Of a DNA stretch of 64,000 nucleotides, positions 3,819 to 58,058 are shown in pieces; position 1 is the stretch's first letter; each line of letters starts with the position of its first letter. The notes under the pieces were generated by a model, which was not told the origin of the DNA, ran no database searches, and saw only the letters and a program-made list of their open reading frames with translations. Location: positions 1 to 64,000 of the forward strand of contig JABTUL010000001.1 of the NCBI GenBank assembly GCA_015075425.1, read 5' to 3'. The position numbers and the translations under genes are program-made. This DNA is from Spirochaetales bacterium (GTDB lineage: Bacteria; Spirochaetota; Leptospiria; Leptospirales; Leptonemataceae).

Positions 3819-4349
3819 TTACTCTGGAAGTTTATGCCAACTTCTTTCCATGCGACCGGCCCGGAATAGAACCTCTTCGGCACGACGGCCGCACTCCTCA
3901 CAGGCCGCAAAGAGGAAGCGGTGTACACCATCCCCTCTTTCATAGATATCAAAATCATTGCAATTTCCGAAAGGCTCACTGGTGCTCACCCGGTCTGCTG
4001 TCAGAAAGATGAGTCGGTACCGGGCCGGACAGGAATCGCCCGGGTAGGTGCGCAAAAGATAGAGATCCGGCTCAAGGAGCTTGAGGTCCCCGGGCAGTAC
4101 GGAGACGTCAGAAATGCCCGCGTCACGGCCCCGCCAGGTGAGGGTCACCTGCCCCGCGCTGAGGTAAAGCTGCGGATCCGCAGAGCCGCATCCTGCCCAC
4201 AGCACAATTGCTGCCCACAGAAGGAATCCGGAAAGGACACCAGGGTATTGATCTTCCGGCGATTTTCTGGACACCCCGACACCCAAACGCCGGCTCTGGA
4301 TGGGTGAGATTGTGTTATGAACTTTTGCACAACGGAATGGACAGGTCAT
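3819..4349 (-). CDS. putative lipoprotein of unknown function
   Basis: This 176-residue protein starts at an ATGA overlap with the stop of the upstream hydrolase gene, which supports the start. A hydrophobic stretch (VLSGFLLWAAIVLWAGCGSAD) ends in a lipobox-like WAGC about 50 residues in, so either the leader is unusually long or translation begins internally. The mature part is beta-rich and has a Cys pair (AACEEC). I do not recognise the family. It is the last gene of a three-gene minus-strand operon. Confidence 0.5.
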   Translation of the reverse strand: MTCPFRCAKVHNTISPIQSRRLGVGVSRKSPEDQYPGVLSGFLLWAAIVLWAGCGSADPQLYLSAGQVTLTWRGRDAGISDVSVLPGDLKLLEPDLYLLRTYPGDSCPARYRLIFLTADRVSTSEPFGNCNDFDIYERGDGVHRFLFAACEECGRRAEEVLFRAGRMERSWHKLPE

Positions 4350-5170
4350 TGTTCAGGCCGTAATATTTTTTCCAGGAACTTTTGCATCTCCAGCCAGGAT
4401 CTGCGGTCAGCTTCCGAATCATAGGCCACCGGGAGTTTGAATTTTTTTGCCTGCTGGTCTGCGTCCCTACTTGTAAAGGCGTGCTTTACACCGGGATAAC
4501 TGATAAATTCGTACGCCGCGCCGGCTTTCTTCATTTCTCTGTGAAAGGCAGCGATCTGTGCCGGTGGAACAAAGGCATCGTCTGCTCCATGCAAAACAAG
4601 GATCCGTACCTTGAAACCGGGCCGGGCCGGAGTCAGAGCGGCCAGACCACCATGAAAGCTGACCACTCCCTTAAGCGGTAAATCGGCCCGGGCCATGTTG
4701 AGTGCTACACCTCCCCCAAAGCAATAGCCGACTGCTGCCCGGAGTTCCGGGTCCACAAAAGGCAACCGATCAAGTTCCTCCAGGGCAGCGCGAAAGCGCC
4801 GCTCGGCTGCGGGAAAACTTTTCAACGACTCCTGAGCAAAAGCACGGGCCTCTGCGGGGTGTGTGGCCAGTTTTCCCGACCCATACATATCTATGGCCAG
4901 AGCTGCATAGCCAAGTTCGGCTAATTTGCGTGCTCTGTGACGGACATATTCATTGTGTCCCCACCATTCATGGATGACCAGGATACCCGGGATTTTTTTA
5001 TTTTTCTTTAAATTCGCGGGATAGGCCAGGTAGCCTTGAAACTGCTCCCCTGAAGAGGTGTAGTTATGCGCTCTTGCTACGATGTCCTGTGCCATCCCCT
5101 GGTCGGGACAGAACAGTATAAAACCCATAAACAGAGCATGGGCGATGTTTGCTTTCAAGGCCTTTGCCAT
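4346..5170 (-). CDS. dienelactone hydrolase family protein, exported
   Basis: This is a 274-residue alpha/beta hydrolase. The N-terminal leader (IAHALFMGFILFCPDQGMAQ) suggests export. Family marks follow: VIHEWWGHN near residue 64, the nucleophile elbow GYCFGG (cysteine nucleophile) near 148-153, the acid in LHGADDAFVPP, and the catalytic histidine in GVKHAF. The Cys-Asp-His triad is that of dienelactone hydrolases, which cleave the ester bond of dienelactone-like substrates. The real substrate here cannot be told. It overlaps the upstream gene by 16 bases and the downstream one by four, so the three probably form one transcript. Confidence 0.85.
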   Translation of the reverse strand: MAKALKANIAHALFMGFILFCPDQGMAQDIVARAHNYTSSGEQFQGYLAYPANLKKNKKIPGILVIHEWWGHNEYVRHRARKLAELGYAALAIDMYGSGKLATHPAEARAFAQESLKSFPAAERRFRAALEELDRLPFVDPELRAAVGYCFGGGVALNMARADLPLKGVVSFHGGLAALTPARPGFKVRILVLHGADDAFVPPAQIAAFHREMKKAGAAYEFISYPGVKHAFTSRDADQQAKKFKLPVAYDSEADRRSWLEMQKFLEKILRPEQ

Positions 5171-5535
5171 TTTTCATAAAACTCCGGCCATTCGCGGGAT
5201 TGCAAAAGAAACAGATTCTCTTTTTTGATTCGAATTTCCAGCCGTTTTGTCTGACCCGTATTGATATGTGTTAGCTGCAACTGACCGTCAAATGTGGGTC
5301 GGAAAACAAAGCCTTCTCCGGCGGGAGCATCGATCGTTTTCTGGATGGCCAGGGCCTCTCCTTCCACTCGCATAGCTTCATCCGGTCCCTTGCGCTGGCA
5401 ACTGCCACTTTCTTTACATTTGATGCCGGTGCGGACCCAATCGCCCTGTAAGAAATCTGGCAATGGCGGCGGTTTGTAAGCGGCAGAGGCGCAGCTGACC
5501 AGAGCAAACATCAGTAGAAAGAAAAAAGACTTCAT
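5155..5535 (-). CDS. small lipoprotein of unknown function
   Basis: The ATG at 5535 gives a clean leader and lipobox (MKSFFFLLMFALVSCASA), with Cys-15 as the likely lipidated residue. The frame is open further upstream, but the extra residues are not signal-like. The mature protein of about 110 residues contains LQGDWVRTGIKCKESGSC and ends EFYEKWQRP, a small beta-rich fold of lipocalin-like length. It is the first gene of the minus-strand operon leading to the dienelactone hydrolase. Confidence 0.6.
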   Translation of the reverse strand: MKSFFFLLMFALVSCASAAYKPPPLPDFLQGDWVRTGIKCKESGSCQRKGPDEAMRVEGEALAIQKTIDAPAGEGFVFRPTFDGQLQLTHINTGQTKRLEIRIKKENLFLLQSREWPEFYEKWQRP

Positions 5536-9086: not shown

Positions 9087-9613
9087 TGATGGACTGGTTT
9101 GCGCTTGACCGGGCTCTTGCTGGCAGGCTCAGGAGGAGATGCCGGCCGCGCTGGCTATTTGCCGCCCTTGCGCGTTCCGGTGATTCGTATGTCTTTTTTT
9201 TGTTGGCCGCTGCGGTATGGCAATGGGGCGATAAATTCAATCCGGCCCTCCCATCACTCGCTGTTTTTGTACTCCTGGCTATTATATTTACTTCCTTTAT
9301 TGTTTTATTTATTAAATGGGCTGTTCAAAGGGAGAGGCCTGCGGGCGACTGGGGTGGGATCTACCGCTCCCATGATCCTTACTCTTTCCCTTCCGGTCAT
9401 GCCAGCCGGGCGGGGCTGCTGGCGGTTCAGTCGCTGGGGGGTCCTTTGTGGCTGGCACTTCCGGTTTGCTGCTGGGCTTTACTGGTTTCTCTGGCGCGTA
9501 TAGTAATGGGCGTTCACTACCCGTCTGATGTTCTTGCCGGTTTTTTGCTGGGAATGGTCCTTGGAGCCATTCTGCACTTTTTCCGGCCGCTCCTTGCGCT
9601 GTATATGATTTGA
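9083..9613 (+). CDS. PAP2-family membrane phosphatase
   Basis: This is a 176-residue integral membrane protein with all three PAP2 motifs: KWAVQRERP (KxxxxxxRP), PSGH, and SLARIVMGVHYPSD (SRxxxxxHxxxD). About five hydrophobic segments surround them. Such enzymes remove phosphate from phosphatidic acid, phosphatidylglycerol phosphate or polyprenyl diphosphates on the outer face of the inner membrane. In this operon it could finish a phosphorylated lipid intermediate or recycle the carrier. It overlaps both neighbours by four bases. Confidence 0.9.
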   Translation: MMMDWFALDRALAGRLRRRCRPRWLFAALARSGDSYVFFLLAAAVWQWGDKFNPALPSLAVFVLLAIIFTSFIVLFIKWAVQRERPAGDWGGIYRSHDPYSFPSGHASRAGLLAVQSLGGPLWLALPVCCWALLVSLARIVMGVHYPSDVLAGFLLGMVLGAILHFFRPLLALYMI

Positions 9614-10476
9614 CAGGTATCGCGCAAGGGACTCCTTGCCCGCGTATGGCATTCGGGCAGGTACACCTGCATTCCGCCGCGTCTGATGGAACCATCCTTC
9701 CGGAAATGCTTGCTGAACTTGATTTTGCCGCGCTGACTGATCACGATACCTTCGCCGGCCTGGACCTTTTTCGGGATGCTCCCACACAAATGATTGCCGG
9801 CATTGAACTGTCTGTCCTTTATAAGGGAAATAAGTTTCACGTAGTTATACTCGAACCTCGACCCTCAGGGGACCTTTTTGATCTTCTGCGCGACTTGCGC
9901 TATCAGCGTGAAGTGAAAGTGCAACACTTCCTACGGAAAATGGAGGCTCACGGTTTCCGGCTTTCGACTTTTCCTTTTGCCTGGCCCGGGATTCACAAGC
10001 GCTGGCTCATCGAACAGCTTCTGCGCGATCCGCTCAATGGAGAGCTGGTCGAGCGCCTTGGTCTTCAGGGCCCCAAAGATTTTAAAAAACGTTTTGTTCC
10101 TGATTCTTTAGATTTTACGCCCCGGGGTGTGGCTCTGGAGCAGGTGCGAAAAAGTTGCAATGGCATTTTTATTCTCGCTCATCCCGGAGCATCGCTGGAT
10201 CTTAAAGTGATAGAGAATGTGCAGCTCGTGAAAGAAGTATGCCGGACATTTGGCTTTCACGGGCTGGAAGTCGTTACGCGCCGGCACAGCGAGTCGGATT
10301 CCCATGAGGCCCGTTTGATTGCCCGCGAACTGAATCTTGTGGCAGTAACCACAAACGATGTGCACGCACCCCAGGATCTTTTGAGTAACTGCACCTCACG
10401 GATGGAGCTGGATGCCCTGTATGAACGCAGCAATTGCGTGAGGGCTGATTGGAGTATTTTATTACATGAAGATTGA
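9610..10476 (+). CDS. PHP-domain metal-dependent phosphoesterase
   Basis: This is a protein of about 288 residues, or 276 if it starts at ATG 9646 rather than the overlapping TTG 9610. PHP motifs are clear: VHLHSAASDGT (HxH plus D), LTDHDTF, and later HPGA and TTNDVHAP. These residues coordinate the metal cluster of PHP phosphoesterases. The substrate could be a nucleotide or a phosphorylated sugar intermediate of the operon. The stop overlaps the next gene by 11 bases. Confidence 0.85.
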   Translation: MTGIAQGTPCPRMAFGQVHLHSAASDGTILPEMLAELDFAALTDHDTFAGLDLFRDAPTQMIAGIELSVLYKGNKFHVVILEPRPSGDLFDLLRDLRYQREVKVQHFLRKMEAHGFRLSTFPFAWPGIHKRWLIEQLLRDPLNGELVERLGLQGPKDFKKRFVPDSLDFTPRGVALEQVRKSCNGIFILAHPGASLDLKVIENVQLVKEVCRTFGFHGLEVVTRRHSESDSHEARLIARELNLVAVTTNDVHAPQDLLSNCTSRMELDALYERSNCVRADWSILLHED

Positions 10477-21461: not shown

Positions 21462-21809
21462 TTGCAGAGCTGGTGGAAAATTGTATTTGATGCCCGTGCT
21501 CGAATCATTACGATCACACGCGGGGAAGAAAAGGTGTGGGTTACTTACGGATTACAGACGATGGATCAGGAATCCGGCCCAATGCAGAGGGCCAGCCGGA
21601 TTTTCGTTATGCGGCCACTCATATTTGTGACTCTGTTAAAAGACGGCAAAACATATGAAATGCGCATGCGGAAGGGCGATCCTTCCTTTGTCAATTTATA
21701 CGGAAGAAAATTTGTAAACTACGAGGGCCTGCTGGCTCTTGAGGTATTGGCCGGCAACATAGCATTGTTCATTTTTGGCTTGATTTTCCAGGTGCATGCA
21801 TGCTGCTAA
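21462..21809 (+). CDS. hypothetical protein with C-terminal membrane segment
   Basis: This is a protein of about 115 residues if it starts at TTG 21462. A short beta-rich part (WWKIVFDARARIITITRGEE, then FVTLLKDGKTYEMRMRKGD) is followed by a terminal hydrophobic helix (LAGNIALFIFGLIFQV). The frame is open from inside the kinase gene, and no ATG gives a convincing start. It overlaps the next gene by ten bases. The family is unknown. Confidence 0.4.
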   Translation: MQSWWKIVFDARARIITITRGEEKVWVTYGLQTMDQESGPMQRASRIFVMRPLIFVTLLKDGKTYEMRMRKGDPSFVNLYGRKFVNYEGLLALEVLAGNIALFIFGLIFQVHACC

Positions 21810-23020
21810 TGCTGGTGTTATTTAGCCGCATTCTGCTCCTCCCGTTTCTGGCGTCCTGCACGTTCTATCAGGTCGATTGTGATGCCCTGGACTCAGCGTG
21901 CAATCCGCTGCGCTTGAATTTGCTTTATGGTTTTAGATCCAGTGCCAGCATTTGTTCCGCCGCGTATCATGAATTGATTCTGCCATCAGCCTGGCCGCAG
22001 GTCCAGGCAGAATTGCGCGCCCAGGCAGCAAAAGGAAATTATGGCAGTCCATCAGCCACACTTTTCGGGCCGAGTCCTGGGGTGGGCAGCGCCTATGTAG
22101 GCGGAGTCCTTGCCCCCAATGGTATCATTTATGCGATTCCGCACTCCGCCACAAGCGTGGCCCGCATTGATCCGCGTTCCAATACCGTTACCTTTTTTGG
22201 GAGCCTGGCCGGTACGACCAAATGGGCGGGAGGCGTGTTGGCTTCAAACGGAAAAATTTACGCCTTTCCCTTTGGAGCGACCACGACATCTGTCCTCGTG
22301 ATTGATCCTGCTTCAGATTCGGTATACCAGTTTGGCGCGGTCTCAGCTGTTGCCGACAAATGGGCGGGAGGAGTTCTGGCTTCAGATGGACTGATCTACG
22401 GGATGGCCACCTCCGAAACGGCGGTTCTGGCAATTGATCCGCAATCCGACTCGCTGACTGCATGGGGGTCTTTGACCGGAAAAAGCGGGGCCGTGCTTGC
22501 GCCAACGGGGAAAATCTACGCCTTTCCTGTTACCGGCGGCGCGCCGTACGCTGCTGTTGATCCAGATGCGCGCACAGTAACTGCTTTTGGTGCCGCACCG
22601 GCCGGCGCTACGCCCTTTCTTGGCGGAGCTCTGGCGCCAAACGGAAAGATTTATGCGCTGCCGGCAATTGGCTCCGCCTACAGTGAAATTGATCCGGCCA
22701 CTCATGCAGTCGTTGATTTTGGCAGTCCCCCGGCCGGGGTGGGAGGCTTTGTCGGAGGCGTGCTGGCCCCGGACGGAAAGATCTATGGAATTCCCAACGG
22801 AAGCGGAGGTACTTACGTTGCCCTGGACCCGGATTCCCTTCAGGCTCCCACCTTCGGGACGATTGCCGGAGGCGACCTTTACCAGAGCGGCGTACTGGCT
22901 CCCAATGGAAAAATCTATGGAATACCCTTTAACGCGGGATCGTTTCTGGAAATCGATCCACGTGCGAACGGAACCTTGTGTCCGGCAATTCTGCAGTCGG
23001 CCTATCTCAATAAGTTTTAG
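21800..23020 (+). CDS. seven-bladed beta-propeller lipoprotein
   Basis: This 406-residue protein has a lipoprotein-like leader (LFSRILLLPFLASC, lipidated Cys at about 16). After about 85 residues it carries seven repeats of about 40-45 residues, each built as GGVLAPNGKIYAIP, then xxIDPxSxxVxxFG. Seven such blades fit a closed beta-propeller. The repeat resembles surface lipoproteins with a ligand or polymer-binding role. No catalytic motif is visible. It ends just before the left copy of the 44-bp direct repeat. Confidence 0.65.
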   Translation: MLLMLVLFSRILLLPFLASCTFYQVDCDALDSACNPLRLNLLYGFRSSASICSAAYHELILPSAWPQVQAELRAQAAKGNYGSPSATLFGPSPGVGSAYVGGVLAPNGIIYAIPHSATSVARIDPRSNTVTFFGSLAGTTKWAGGVLASNGKIYAFPFGATTTSVLVIDPASDSVYQFGAVSAVADKWAGGVLASDGLIYGMATSETAVLAIDPQSDSLTAWGSLTGKSGAVLAPTGKIYAFPVTGGAPYAAVDPDARTVTAFGAAPAGATPFLGGALAPNGKIYALPAIGSAYSEIDPATHAVVDFGSPPAGVGGFVGGVLAPDGKIYGIPNGSGGTYVALDPDSLQAPTFGTIAGGDLYQSGVLAPNGKIYGIPFNAGSFLEIDPRANGTLCPAILQSAYLNKF

Positions 23021-23024
23021 TTGC

Positions 23025-23068
23025 GCCGCACTTGAGGCAAGTCCGTTACCGGGAATTCAGTGCATCGC
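23025..23068. repeat. 44-bp direct repeat, left copy
   Basis: This is identical to 26575-26618 except for one base (A at 23035, C at 26585). On the minus strand it spells the last eight codons and stop of the acyl-carrier-like gene at 26596-26919 (DALNSR then TAA), but without the rest of that gene. The two copies bracket a 3.5-kb two-gene segment. Confidence 0.85.
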
Positions 23069-23215
23069 CCCGCCGCCTGACATGTTCTCAGTCAGACAAT
23101 CCGCATTTGATGATTTGATGTGGTAGGATGCTGGTTGAAAAAAATAGATTGAGAAAAAAACAAGCAAACAAAAATTTTGTGTTTGTTAGTACATCAACAT
23201 CGGTTTTTAGTTAGA

Positions 23216-24823
23216 ATGAAGGCGATAAAAACAGGATTGTCAGTATTTGCGATACTGTCCAGTTTTCTGGGGTCGGGCTGCGCCCCGACGTCTGAAAATT
23301 CTCGGTCAGACGCACAACTTGTCCTGGTGGGCTACCTGCTGGGCATTTCAAGCGATTCGACTTCCTCTGGTTCTTCTGAATACAATGGTCCTCTGGCCAT
23401 CCGTCTTCTCGGTGCGCGCTATCCCCATAATTCCAAATTTGATTTTGGCAGTGCAAATGTTGGCACTGGAATTGGTTATTTTGCCACGATAGAAAACGAT
23501 GAGGACAGTCCACAGATAATTGACAGTATAGAATTCTCAGGGATCCATTCAGCTGATTTCGATTGGTTTCCATTGTTCCCCGGTCTTCCGGTTACCATTG
23601 GCGCGCTGTCATCCGAAGATATGCTGCTCGGTTTTTTTCCATCGGCAGCCGGGTCTCGGGAGGGAAAAATCAACATTCAAGGTTTGCAGCTCAACTTGAC
23701 GGGGACCGGAACGACTGCTCCGGCGCCCCAGGAAATACGGTTAGTCGGACCTTCCGGAGAAATTGCCAGCGGCGGAGGCTATGATTTTGGTAACATTGCA
23801 GTTAGTGGCTCCTCTGGAGCTTTAACTTTTACCATAAACAATTCGGGAGGAACAGCTCTGAGTCTCACCGGCACTCCTAAAGTCGCTCTTGCAGGTGCAA
23901 ATGCCGCCGAGTTTAGCGTAAATGAAACAAGTACAACTTCACCGGTGGCAGCCAGCGCATTCACCACATTCACTGTGACATTTTCTCCAACCAGTGCCGG
24001 AGCCAAAAACGCGAGCGTGAGTATTGCAAACAACGACGCCGACGAAAACCCATTTACGATCAATCTTTCCGGGACAGGTGTACAACAGGAAATAAGAATT
24101 GATGGACCGTTCGGTGAAATTGCCAGTGGTGGCAGCCATAATTTTGGCAATGTTACCGAAGGCTCTTCTTCGGACGCGGTTGCTTTTACTGTCATGAACA
24201 CCGGCGGCGTTGCTTTAAGTTTGACTGGAACACCCAAAGTTGTCCTTGCTGGTGCGAATGCGGCAGAATTCAGCGTCAATGAGACAGGTACTACTTCGCC
24301 GGTGGCAGCCAGCGGATCCACCACATTCACTGTGAGCTTTTCTCCAGCCAGTCCCGGAGGGAAAAGTGCCAGTATAAGTATTGCAAACAATGATTCCGAC
24401 GAAAATCCTTATGAGATCCAGCTATCCGGAACGGGTCTGGCATCAGTCCCGGACCTGGAAGTAAAGCTCGGGGGTTTAACGATCAACAACGGAGGCACCG
24501 TTGACTTCGGTTTCAACCCTCAGTGTCCTGTGAGCGACAAAACATTCACTATCAAGAATAACGGAACTGCAAATCTCACCTTGAGCGCAACTCCCAGAGT
24601 ACAATTGAGCGGAGTGCAGGACAACGTGTTTATAGTAAATTCTCAGCCGACCAGTCCGGTCGTTCCGGGGAGTTCCACGGCTTTCATTATTCAGGCTTGC
24701 CTTGTTCCCTTTCCCGCCGGGTCGTTTACTCGCGCTACGGATAGTGCCACAGTGAGCATTGATAGCGATGACCCCGACTTCCCTAATTTCAGCTTCACTG
24801 TGACTGCAACTTTTGGCTGCTGA
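23216..24823 (+). CDS. ASPM-SPD-2-Hydin repeat lipoprotein
   Basis: This is a 535-residue protein from ATG 23216. The leader ends in SSFLGSGC, a spirochaetal lipobox. Four immunoglobulin-like domains of the choice-of-anchor D (ASPM-SPD-2-Hydin) type follow: FDFGSANVGTG, YDFGNIAVSGSS, HNFGNVTEGSSS and VDFGFNPQCP. The middle two are near copies with an exact offset of 357 bp (119 codons), so they arose by recent duplication. Such lipoproteins are surface or periplasmic binding scaffolds. The stop overlaps the next gene by 11 bases. Confidence 0.75.
   Translation: MKAIKTGLSVFAILSSFLGSGCAPTSENSRSDAQLVLVGYLLGISSDSTSSGSSEYNGPLAIRLLGARYPHNSKFDFGSANVGTGIGYFATIENDEDSPQIIDSIEFSGIHSADFDWFPLFPGLPVTIGALSSEDMLLGFFPSAAGSREGKINIQGLQLNLTGTGTTAPAPQEIRLVGPSGEIASGGGYDFGNIAVSGSSGALTFTINNSGGTALSLTGTPKVALAGANAAEFSVNETSTTSPVAASAFTTFTVTFSPTSAGAKNASVSIANNDADENPFTINLSGTGVQQEIRIDGPFGEIASGGSHNFGNVTEGSSSDAVAFTVMNTGGVALSLTGTPKVVLAGANAAEFSVNETGTTSPVAASGSTTFTVSFSPASPGGKSASISIANNDSDENPYEIQLSGTGLASVPDLEVKLGGLTINNGGTVDFGFNPQCPVSDKTFTIKNNGTANLTLSATPRVQLSGVQDNVFIVNSQPTSPVVPGSSTAFIIQACLVPFPAGSFTRATDSATVSIDSDDPDFPNFSFTVTATFGC
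23730..24437 (+). repeat. tandem 357-bp intragenic duplication
   Basis: Two in-frame units, about 23730-24086 and 24087-24437, share long identical protein blocks such as LAGANAAEFSVNE and TTSPVAAS. They encode consecutive Hydin-type domains. The high similarity suggests the repeat number can change by recombination. Confidence 0.7.
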
Positions 24824-26549
24824 GATCCACTCCGAATACATTGCTCTGCCCTTCCGGCTGCGCTACCAGAGTTACGCGGATGAACTCATCGAGAACACCG
24901 CAGGTCAAATGTTACATATGCCTGCAGGAACTGCGATGCTACTGTCCAGCCTGGCGCAGTTTCAAGATAGGCGCATAACGCTGGATCGATTGCGAAAGCA
25001 AGGCCTCGAACCTGGCCTTGATGTATTTGAGCAATGCGCGGCGGCCGGTTTGATCGCAAGTGCAAGGGAGATCCTGGAGGAGTGCAAAATCCAGGCCGGG
25101 GCGGTCAAAAGTGGCAATCTGGTATCATTGTGCTGGCTTGCCTGTAATAGGCCCGATTCGCTTGCAGCCAGTATACGCAGTGCATTAAATGATGGCCCAA
25201 CGAAAGTCCGGGAGCTGCAATTCCATGTCTTTGACGACAGCGTGGCGGATCGCGAAGGGATTGCGCGGGCTATCACAGCGATAGAAAAAGAATATAGCTG
25301 CACGATTGCATTACATGATGATGCAGCCAAACGGCAATACTTAAAACGCCTGAATCTTTCTTCAGAAGCTTCGAAACTGGCGCATTTTGCACTATTCCCA
25401 AACGCCCAACCTTCAACGGGCGGAAATCGAAACGCTGTTCTGCTGATGACAGCCGGTCAGAAAATTCTTTGCCTCGACGATGACATTCGGCTAACCTGCT
25501 ACCGTCCGCATTTGGAGCCGCCCCGGTTCAGCTCCGCCTATTTAACCGGGGATTGGTACATGTTTCCATCGATTATTGAAATCACAGATTTTTTGGACTC
25601 AAACTGCAAGCCGGCACACGCTGAATTTGTAGACTTTCATTCGGAGGCGTTACAAAATACTCCAGCGGAGATCGCGCTGGGAGAGAATTCGTGGCGCTCT
25701 CTCACACCTGAACTGGCGAATAAGTTATTGACACACTCATTGCAAATACGCGTGACTTCATCCGGGAGCTATGGCGACTCAGGTCTCGCCAGTCCAGCGC
25801 ATGCGCTTTTTCTGGACGGAGAGATGCGACAGCATTTGCTCCGCGATGCGGATACTTATCGCAGGTCCATTGCCAGCCGTCAGCTGCTTCGTATGAATAA
25901 AGGCCTGACCATCAAGCGCTCCACGCAACTGATGGGCATGAGTCTGGGGCTTGATAATTCGGCATTGCTTCCTCCTTTTTTTCCGGCCTTCCGGAATTCG
26001 GATGGTCTTTTTGCATCCTGCCTGGTCCTCTGCTTTCCAGAGGCTTGCCTTGCTGATCTACCCATCATGCCAGGCCATATTCCGCCCGGATTCCGCCAGC
26101 ACGATCATAAAGACTTATTTGAGATCCCCTGGCGTGTGCCTGAGATATTGCATTCGCTCATTCATGCCTGCCCGGAACCCTTAGCTTCTTCCGGCATCGA
26201 AAATATGAGAGAACTTGCTCGATTCATTCAGTACAATACGGTAAACGAAGAGGTTTTTCAATCTTGCATCATCGAACAACGGCGAAAGGCCCTGCTTCAA
26301 CAACTTCAACAGCTTGATGGACTCCTCGAAAAATTTTATGCTGAGCCAAATTTCTGGGCAGAAGATGTCGAGAAGCGTTGCGATAGAATCTTTGATCTCT
26401 TAAAAAAAGAAAGCTGGCCCATCAACGCTGGAGATGGCAGTGAAGTGGTCCCGTATGTGACCGCACGAGAATTATTGCGGAAATACGCTATGTTACTGGA
26501 AATCTGGCCCGAGATTTACGCGAGAGCGACAGAGCTGAATTCCAACTGA
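24813..26549 (+). CDS. unrecognised protein: PqqD-like N-terminus plus glycosyltransferase-like core
   Basis: This is a 578-residue protein. Residues 20-90 (ENTAGQMLHMPAGTAMLLSS, then a helix pair ending AAAGLIAS) resemble the winged-helix PqqD/RRE fold that binds leader peptides. From about 105 a GT-A-like unit appears: NLVSLCWLACNRPDSLAASI, then LQFHVFDDS and ILCLDDDIRL (a DxD-type metal site near residue 230). The remaining 330 residues are helical and unfamiliar. It is coupled to the Hydin-type lipoprotein gene and lies inside the 44-bp repeats. A role in sugar modification of a peptide or lipoprotein is a guess. Confidence 0.45.
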   Translation: MAAEIHSEYIALPFRLRYQSYADELIENTAGQMLHMPAGTAMLLSSLAQFQDRRITLDRLRKQGLEPGLDVFEQCAAAGLIASAREILEECKIQAGAVKSGNLVSLCWLACNRPDSLAASIRSALNDGPTKVRELQFHVFDDSVADREGIARAITAIEKEYSCTIALHDDAAKRQYLKRLNLSSEASKLAHFALFPNAQPSTGGNRNAVLLMTAGQKILCLDDDIRLTCYRPHLEPPRFSSAYLTGDWYMFPSIIEITDFLDSNCKPAHAEFVDFHSEALQNTPAEIALGENSWRSLTPELANKLLTHSLQIRVTSSGSYGDSGLASPAHALFLDGEMRQHLLRDADTYRRSIASRQLLRMNKGLTIKRSTQLMGMSLGLDNSALLPPFFPAFRNSDGLFASCLVLCFPEACLADLPIMPGHIPPGFRQHDHKDLFEIPWRVPEILHSLIHACPEPLASSGIENMRELARFIQYNTVNEEVFQSCIIEQRRKALLQQLQQLDGLLEKFYAEPNFWAEDVEKRCDRIFDLLKKESWPINAGDGSEVVPYVTARELLRKYAMLLEIWPEIYARATELNSN

Positions 26550-26574
26550 CGCACATTCAGATAAACTTCGGGCA

Positions 26575-26618
26575 GCCGCACTTGCGGCAAGTCCGTTACC
26601 GGGAATTCAGTGCATCGC
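26575..26618. repeat. 44-bp direct repeat, right copy (3' end of carrier-like gene)
   Basis: The copy covers the last eight codons and stop (TAA at 26598-26596) of the minus-strand acyl-carrier-like gene and its first downstream bases. These include the small dyad GCCGC-ACTT-GCGGC. It matches the left copy at 43 of 44 positions. Integration or duplication at a gene 3' end is the simplest explanation. Confidence 0.85.
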
Positions 26619-26919
26619 GCATATACTCGGAAATCGAACGTATTGTGTTTGCTTCTGTAAACATTCCTTTCGACAAAAACAGGCTCAGTTCGTTAGCAAC
26701 GAAATTTCTAATTTCCGTTGCTGTTTGCTCGTTCACTCCGAGGGATGCGAAAGAGTCGTCAGGATTCAGGTGTTCTGCCTTCCGACTGGTGTTCAGGGCG
26801 ATCACACGCGTAACGTAGGCAATGATTTTGTCCAGTTGTTCTGTGCTATCCTTGACGTTCACCAGAGAATCGCGAACTTCGGATTTGAAAGAATCATCTG
26901 CGCCGCTGTTTGAATCCAT
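26596..26919 (-). CDS. acyl-carrier-like protein lacking the phosphopantetheine serine
   Basis: This is a 107-residue protein whose residues 28-105 follow the four-helix carrier pattern: DDSFASLGVNEQTATEIRNF, then LFLSKGMFTEANTIRSISEY. In active carriers the motif is LGxDSL; here it is LGVNEQ, with Glu-64 where the modified Ser should be. It therefore cannot carry a thioester by the known route and may act as a protein-protein adaptor. It lies 18 bases downstream of cysC on the same strand, so the two are probably co-transcribed. Its 3' end is duplicated 3.55 kb away. Confidence 0.65.
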   Translation of the reverse strand: MDSNSGADDSFKSEVRDSLVNVKDSTEQLDKIIAYVTRVIALNTSRKAEHLNPDDSFASLGVNEQTATEIRNFVANELSLFLSKGMFTEANTIRSISEYMRDALNSR

Positions 26920-57617: not shown

Positions 57618-58058
57618 CTACTTGAGCAAAACATCGAGTCCTTTGAGAATGCCAATCATTGCTGACATGGCCACGATGATCCAGATTACCTGCCGATTGA
57701 TGGCCTGGTGTAAATCGGCACGGACTTTCTCAACCTCAGCCCGAACTTTTTCAACCTCGGCCCTGACCGTTTCAATCTCGACGCTGAGGTGAGCCCTGAC
57801 CGTTTCAATCTCGACGCTGAGGTGAGCCCTGACCTTTTCGATATCAATACTGAGGTCAGCCCTGACCTTTTCGATATCAATACTGAGGTCAGCCCTGACC
57901 TTTTCGATGGCTCCCCGGATCTCCCAGCTCTCCTTCTCAAACTGGGCGCGGCTAACAGCCTCTTTGCGCTCCTGGTAAGCTTCGAAGGCTTCCAGGATGG
58001 CCTCAGCCTTGGCAGGATCCTCCTCAAATGCCTTGTAAATTTTTACGGCAATGCTCAC
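57618..58058 (-). CDS. hendecad coiled-coil protein with C-terminal membrane anchor
   Basis: This is a 146-residue protein. After a helical start (YKAFEEDPAKAEAILEAFEA), residues about 50-115 repeat 11-residue units of the type IEKVRADLSID and IETVRAHLSVE. This 11-residue (hendecad) pattern gives a slightly right-handed coiled coil. A C-terminal membrane helix follows (VIWIIVAMSAMIGILKGL). The layout resembles DUF1640/coiled-coil anchors found near mobile elements. The function is unknown. Confidence 0.6.
   Translation of the reverse strand: MSIAVKIYKAFEEDPAKAEAILEAFEAYQERKEAVSRAQFEKESWEIRGAIEKVRADLSIDIEKVRADLSIDIEKVRAHLSVEIETVRAHLSVEIETVRAEVEKVRAEVEKVRADLHQAINRQVIWIIVAMSAMIGILKGLDVLLK
57761..57892 (-). 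repeat. four 33-bp tandem repeats coding for hendecads
   Basis: Units 57761-57793 and 57794-57826 are identical. Units 57827-57859 and 57860-57892 are also identical and differ from the first pair at a few positions. A partial fifth unit follows. The 33-bp period equals one 11-residue coiled-coil turn, so changes in copy number keep the frame and the heptad-like register. Confidence 0.9.

Follow-up and report, generated by a model that had tools for sequence, protein, structure and literature searches.

The region 23069–26574 of the window (the whole stretch of 64,000 nt that was analyzed) is best explained as a horizontally acquired, non-autonomous cassette of two genes, one for a lipoprotein and one for a putative glycosyltransferase (GT) with a PqqD-like N-terminus, inserted by single-crossover-type or illegitimate recombination. 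The probability of this reading as a whole is estimated as about 0.45. Its core, namely acquisition of the cassette with duplication of a flank, is well supported because the gene pair is bracketed by a direct repeat, coincides with a shift in composition, is patchily distributed and has a second bracketed counterpart in another genus. As an insertion scar alone the site is ordinary. If confirmed, the cassette points to a little-described and testable pairing of a lipoprotein with a glycosyltransferase, and it illustrates how Leptospira-like bacteria can exchange a surface lipoprotein together with its modifying enzyme when the unit encodes no recombinase.

Layout of the cassette and its bracketing repeat

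The cassette is enclosed by a 44-nt direct repeat, the copies of which occupy positions 23025–23068 and 26575–26618 (3550 nt from start to start). Direct comparison confirms the claim of the earlier note that 43 of the 44 bases are identical (98%); the mismatch is at repeat position 11, where the left copy has A for C, and the longest exact core comprises 33 nt (23036/26586). The right copy was previously described as the 3' end of a carrier-like gene. This is correct for 26596–26618, the last 23 nt of that gene, but the copy also includes 21 nt past its stop codon.

The left flanking gene (21800–23020, plus strand) codes for a predicted lipoprotein with an FLASC lipobox and DUF6923-like repeated units, its stop being located 5 nt before the left repeat. 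The DNA separating the repeat copies is 3506 bp long. It starts with an A+T-rich leader on the plus strand (23069–23215; GC content is 42% over 23021–23215), which is presumed to carry the promoter, the match to a sigma-70 promoter being not clear. The leader is followed by cassette gene 1 (23216–24823, plus strand), which encodes a lipoprotein with an LGSGC lipobox and tandem HYDIN/ASH-type Ig domains, and by cassette gene 2 (24813–26549, plus strand), which overlaps it by 11 nt. The 578-aa product of gene 2 is formed by a putative PqqD-like N-terminus and a GT-A-like glycosyltransferase part containing an invariant DDD motif. Beyond gene 2 lies the target gene (26596–26919, minus strand) for an acyl-carrier-like protein (PF00550). 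When the flanks are joined over one repeat copy, both flanking genes are whole, convergent and separated by ~25 nt. The phosphopantetheine serine motif of the carrier-like protein reads LGVNEQT and contains no serine, so this protein may not be a normal acyl carrier.

The 4.13-Mb genome (4 contigs) harbors two copies of the repeat according to BLAST, and no third copy of its 21-nt core was found genome-wide at ≤3 mismatches; this disposes of the possibility, raised in the earlier note, of a widely scattered element. Self-BLAST of 264 kb of the same genome (the window together with ten 20-kb stretches) returned the repeat pair with an E-value of 9e-14 and one other pair, located inside a repeat-coding gene. 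The 44-nt pair is thus the only short direct repeat in this sample with a spacing of >1 kb outside a repeat-coding gene, which argues that it is neither a chance match nor a scattered element. It is very unlikely that the repeat is an assembly artefact or a functional element (a shared terminator or RNA motif) instead of an insertion scar. The assembly does consist of 4 contigs with 96% completeness, and a regulatory motif is possible at a length of 44 bp, but the 2.46-Mb contig is continuous through the cassette site, the two copies are the only ones genome-wide and have sharp edges, and the repeat showed no structured RNA above shuffles, no terminator at either copy and no match in Rfam.

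Composition and distribution

Among 135 intervals of 3.5 kb the cassette is the most deviant in tetranucleotide use and also the lowest in GC content. Finer intervals demonstrate that the shift is confined roughly to the cassette, with its edges near the repeats. The deviation may in part reflect the biased make-up of Hydin repeats, and for this reason composition is taken as supporting evidence only.

Presence of the cassette in all relatives, which the earlier note named as an observation that would speak against integration, is not what was found: a homologue of the GT occurs in 2 of 22 genomes of the family and in 14 of 393 genomes of the phylum. The nearest relative, a Leptospirales MAG (G015, JAEUSB010000080.1), carries a Hydin-GT pair in the same order at an unrelated locus, with 30–49% identity to the pair from the window, although its contig breaks off within the Hydin gene, so that the left flank is missing; its genus mates G003 and G018 gave no GT match. 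As for the flanks, which were sought in relatives to locate an empty site with a single repeat copy as suggested in the earlier note, no such site was seen: no homologue of the carrier-like gene was found among 60 relatives, the flank synteny search detected cysC in 3 others of 31 genomes (43–46% identity), and recG is found in relatives but its upstream neighbors are not common to them, i.e. the neighborhood is not conserved. A phage or plasmid origin of the cassette was rejected, as its DNA had no match in phages, the GT had none in plasmids or viral contigs, and the cassette proteins had none in PHROGs or PADLOC.

The near identity of the two repeat copies indicates that the duplication is young, and it stands against the marked divergence of the gene pair from its nearest relative. 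Such a relation would be expected if the repeat were unrelated to the acquisition and resulted from faulty local replication, by template switching or staggered-break fill-in, around a long-resident gene pair. This is quite unlikely: a short duplication would hardly bracket a deviant and patchy gene pair exactly by chance, and such pairs are absent from the sampled background.

The second bracketed case was found in the single-contig genome G349. There a Hydin-GT pair is located between a segment of the neighboring recQ-like gene and a 134-nt copy of this segment with 78% identity. The recQ fragment has only those two copies in the G349 genome, and the far one is decayed (stops and a frameshift). 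No comparable short repeat was present in 200 kb sampled from G349, where the sole match was an 871-nt duplication. The G349 bracket need not have arisen by the same kind of event as the cassette of the window, and its formation by a simple single crossover requires a later deletion. At other GT loci, where the lipoprotein partners are not of the Hydin type, no bracket was detected except for repeats of lipoprotein genes and a 34-nt palindromic element at locus L094. The L094 repeats were not counted as a third bracketed case since they belong to palindromic elements. Two bracketed cases do not suffice to establish a rule. The palindromic, MITE-like sequences of L094 (for example AGTTCCTCGAAGCTTAGTGG and its complement) are situated at 4200–5470 and 9450–9700 around the GT locus of G354.

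Route of insertion

In the earlier note the repeat was attributed to site-specific integration. Foreign insertion with duplication of the target end is the part of this interpretation which is retained. In its full form the interpretation takes the two 44-bp copies for attL and attR, bounding either an islet or an integrase-less remnant; attB would have been located where the carrier-like gene has its 3' end, and a tyrosine recombinase would have acted in trans or have since been lost. The textbook outcome of integrase action is duplication of a gene 3' end with the gene kept intact, and 44 bp is a typical length for att identity blocks. Here the 3' end of the gene is duplicated together with downstream DNA and the gene is intact, which fits integrase action as well and counts against a non-integrase route. 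The enzyme could come from the genome itself, which has nine tyrosine recombinase matches, among them XerC/D-type and tandem transposon-type ones. One ORF of 659 aa (L066, G000:C1:1381190–1382689) consists of two tandem tyrosine recombinase domains.

However, all nine matches lie outside the window, and no recombinase is encoded between the repeats, in accordance with the earlier note, or elsewhere in the window. The 44-nt repeat contains no inverted-repeat core above chance (0.41–0.70 of shuffles were equal or better), and no other copy of the core exists in the genome (≤3 mismatches) or in viral contigs. Moreover, the G349 case differs in the gene, in the part of the gene and in the length of the repeat: the repeated segment of G349 is internal to recQ, near its 5' end, which makes one shared site-specific recombinase unlikely for both cases. 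Considered as a genomic island, the cassette has direct repeats at both ends, one of them at a gene end; it has no integrase, and its core, found only twice in the genome, is not shared with any integrase-bearing element. Taken together, site-specific integration is a serious possibility, yet not the most probable one.

A short-homology or illegitimate route is favored because there is no paired recombinase site and no partner site, and because the second case differs. By this route, the incoming DNA would have recombined with the chromosome over a short block common to both, at the point between two convergent genes where the carrier-like gene has its 3' end, either in a single-crossover-type or in an illegitimate event. 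Such an event would leave the 44-bp direct repeat and both neighboring genes intact, and RecA or end-joining would be its likely agent rather than a dedicated integrase. We infer that the direction of the event was insertion; recombination between the repeats could allow the cassette to be lost again. The insertion of a gene cassette is an event of a known kind and an ordinary means of gene gain in bacteria; small direct-repeat-bounded islets without an integrase of their own are known.

Two other types of elements do not fit. The cassette is similar to integron gene cassettes in being a small mobile cargo unit between recombination sites, but it has no attC-type pair (GTTRRRY/RYYYAAC) and no inverted repeat above chance, it possesses its own upstream region, and all TIGR02249 (IntI) matches in the genome are below the curated cut-off. 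Insertion of a transposon or IS is contradicted by the lack of a transposase gene between the repeats and by a duplication of 44 bp, which is not short; exact inverted repeats of ≥20 nt are also absent from the window, and the cassette ends show none.

The integrative genomic islands SGI1 and PAISt reside at the 3' ends of trmE (PMC8409611) and bacA (PMC4057263), respectively. As in our case, the recombination site is at a gene 3' end and foreign cargo is inserted there. In contrast to the cassette, which comprises 3.5 kb and two genes and encodes no recombinase, both islands are much larger, and the site-specific recombination system of each is identified. Foreign DNA can also be inserted in a homology-facilitated way or by illegitimate recombination at short homologies, as documented in several bacteria (PMC3240628), and the same route was proposed for effector-immunity modules of the Vibrio T6SS (PMC5361080). 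These cases resemble the cassette in that a small gene module is found beside a conserved anchor with no dedicated recombinase, but they are not defined by a bracketing 44-bp direct repeat, and for the cassette the route is deduced indirectly.

The putative glycosyltransferase and its lipoprotein partners

The previous assignment of the cassette products is upheld for the Hydin-type lipoprotein (PF22544, NF012200). The assignment of the second product as a GT with a PqqD-like N-terminus is only plausible because the family matches are weak. The 578-aa protein alone was not recognized in Pfam and NCBIfam searches. In its family, DDD is invariant in 16 aligned members, PF00535 matches 2 members, and the family profile weakly matches a glycosyltransferase at positions 105–145. 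The PqqD-like N-terminus is suggested by a weak match of the G015 homologue to TIGR04353 (E 0.12), by a weak match of profile positions 18–82 to the TbiB1 RRE (E 0.76), and by strands followed by helices predicted with low confidence for the window protein (model pLDDT 32). A match of the G015 homologue to XerA_Arch (E 0.007) was judged spurious. Shorter members of the family (about 460–480 aa) have no PqqD-like N-terminus.

Fusions of a RiPP recognition element (RRE) with a PF00535 glycosyltransferase are known (PMC12710340). The predicted order of domains in the cassette GT, a PqqD-like N-terminus and then a GT-A-type domain, is the same, whereas its partner is a large lipoprotein and not a short RiPP precursor, and the window protein is unmatched in Pfam and NCBIfam.

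By one lipobox rule, 12 of the 24 genes that adjoin the GT at twelve other loci resemble lipoprotein genes, compared with 12/204 and 5/204 background ORFs; because these loci are partly related and the rule was set after viewing, the p-values of the comparison serve as a guide only. The partners vary, being of the Hydin type in the window and in G349 and having NHL-like or unrecognized domains elsewhere. As the GT family is patchy and mostly found beside a lipoprotein gene, the cassette gives the impression of a transferable unit of an enzyme and its substrate, in which the PqqD-GT protein probably glycosylates its partner lipoprotein. At L088, L089, L093, L095 and L098 the GT homologues are situated within clusters of several related lipoprotein genes, and L093 and L095 contain two GT genes in tandem.

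A limited literature search revealed no report of spirochaete GTs paired with variable lipoproteins. It is conceivable, though improbable, that spirochaetes possess a family of non-autonomous two-gene cassettes, each consisting of a variable surface lipoprotein and a dedicated PqqD-domain GT, which spread by an unrecognized route in which a short part of the flanking gene is copied to the opposite side of the insertion. If so, this family would be a surface-glycoprotein exchange system with no recombinase of its own.

Elsewhere in the window, a small gene on the minus strand contains 33-nt tandem repeats (57760–57908) encoding 11-aa units (EKVRADLSIDI).
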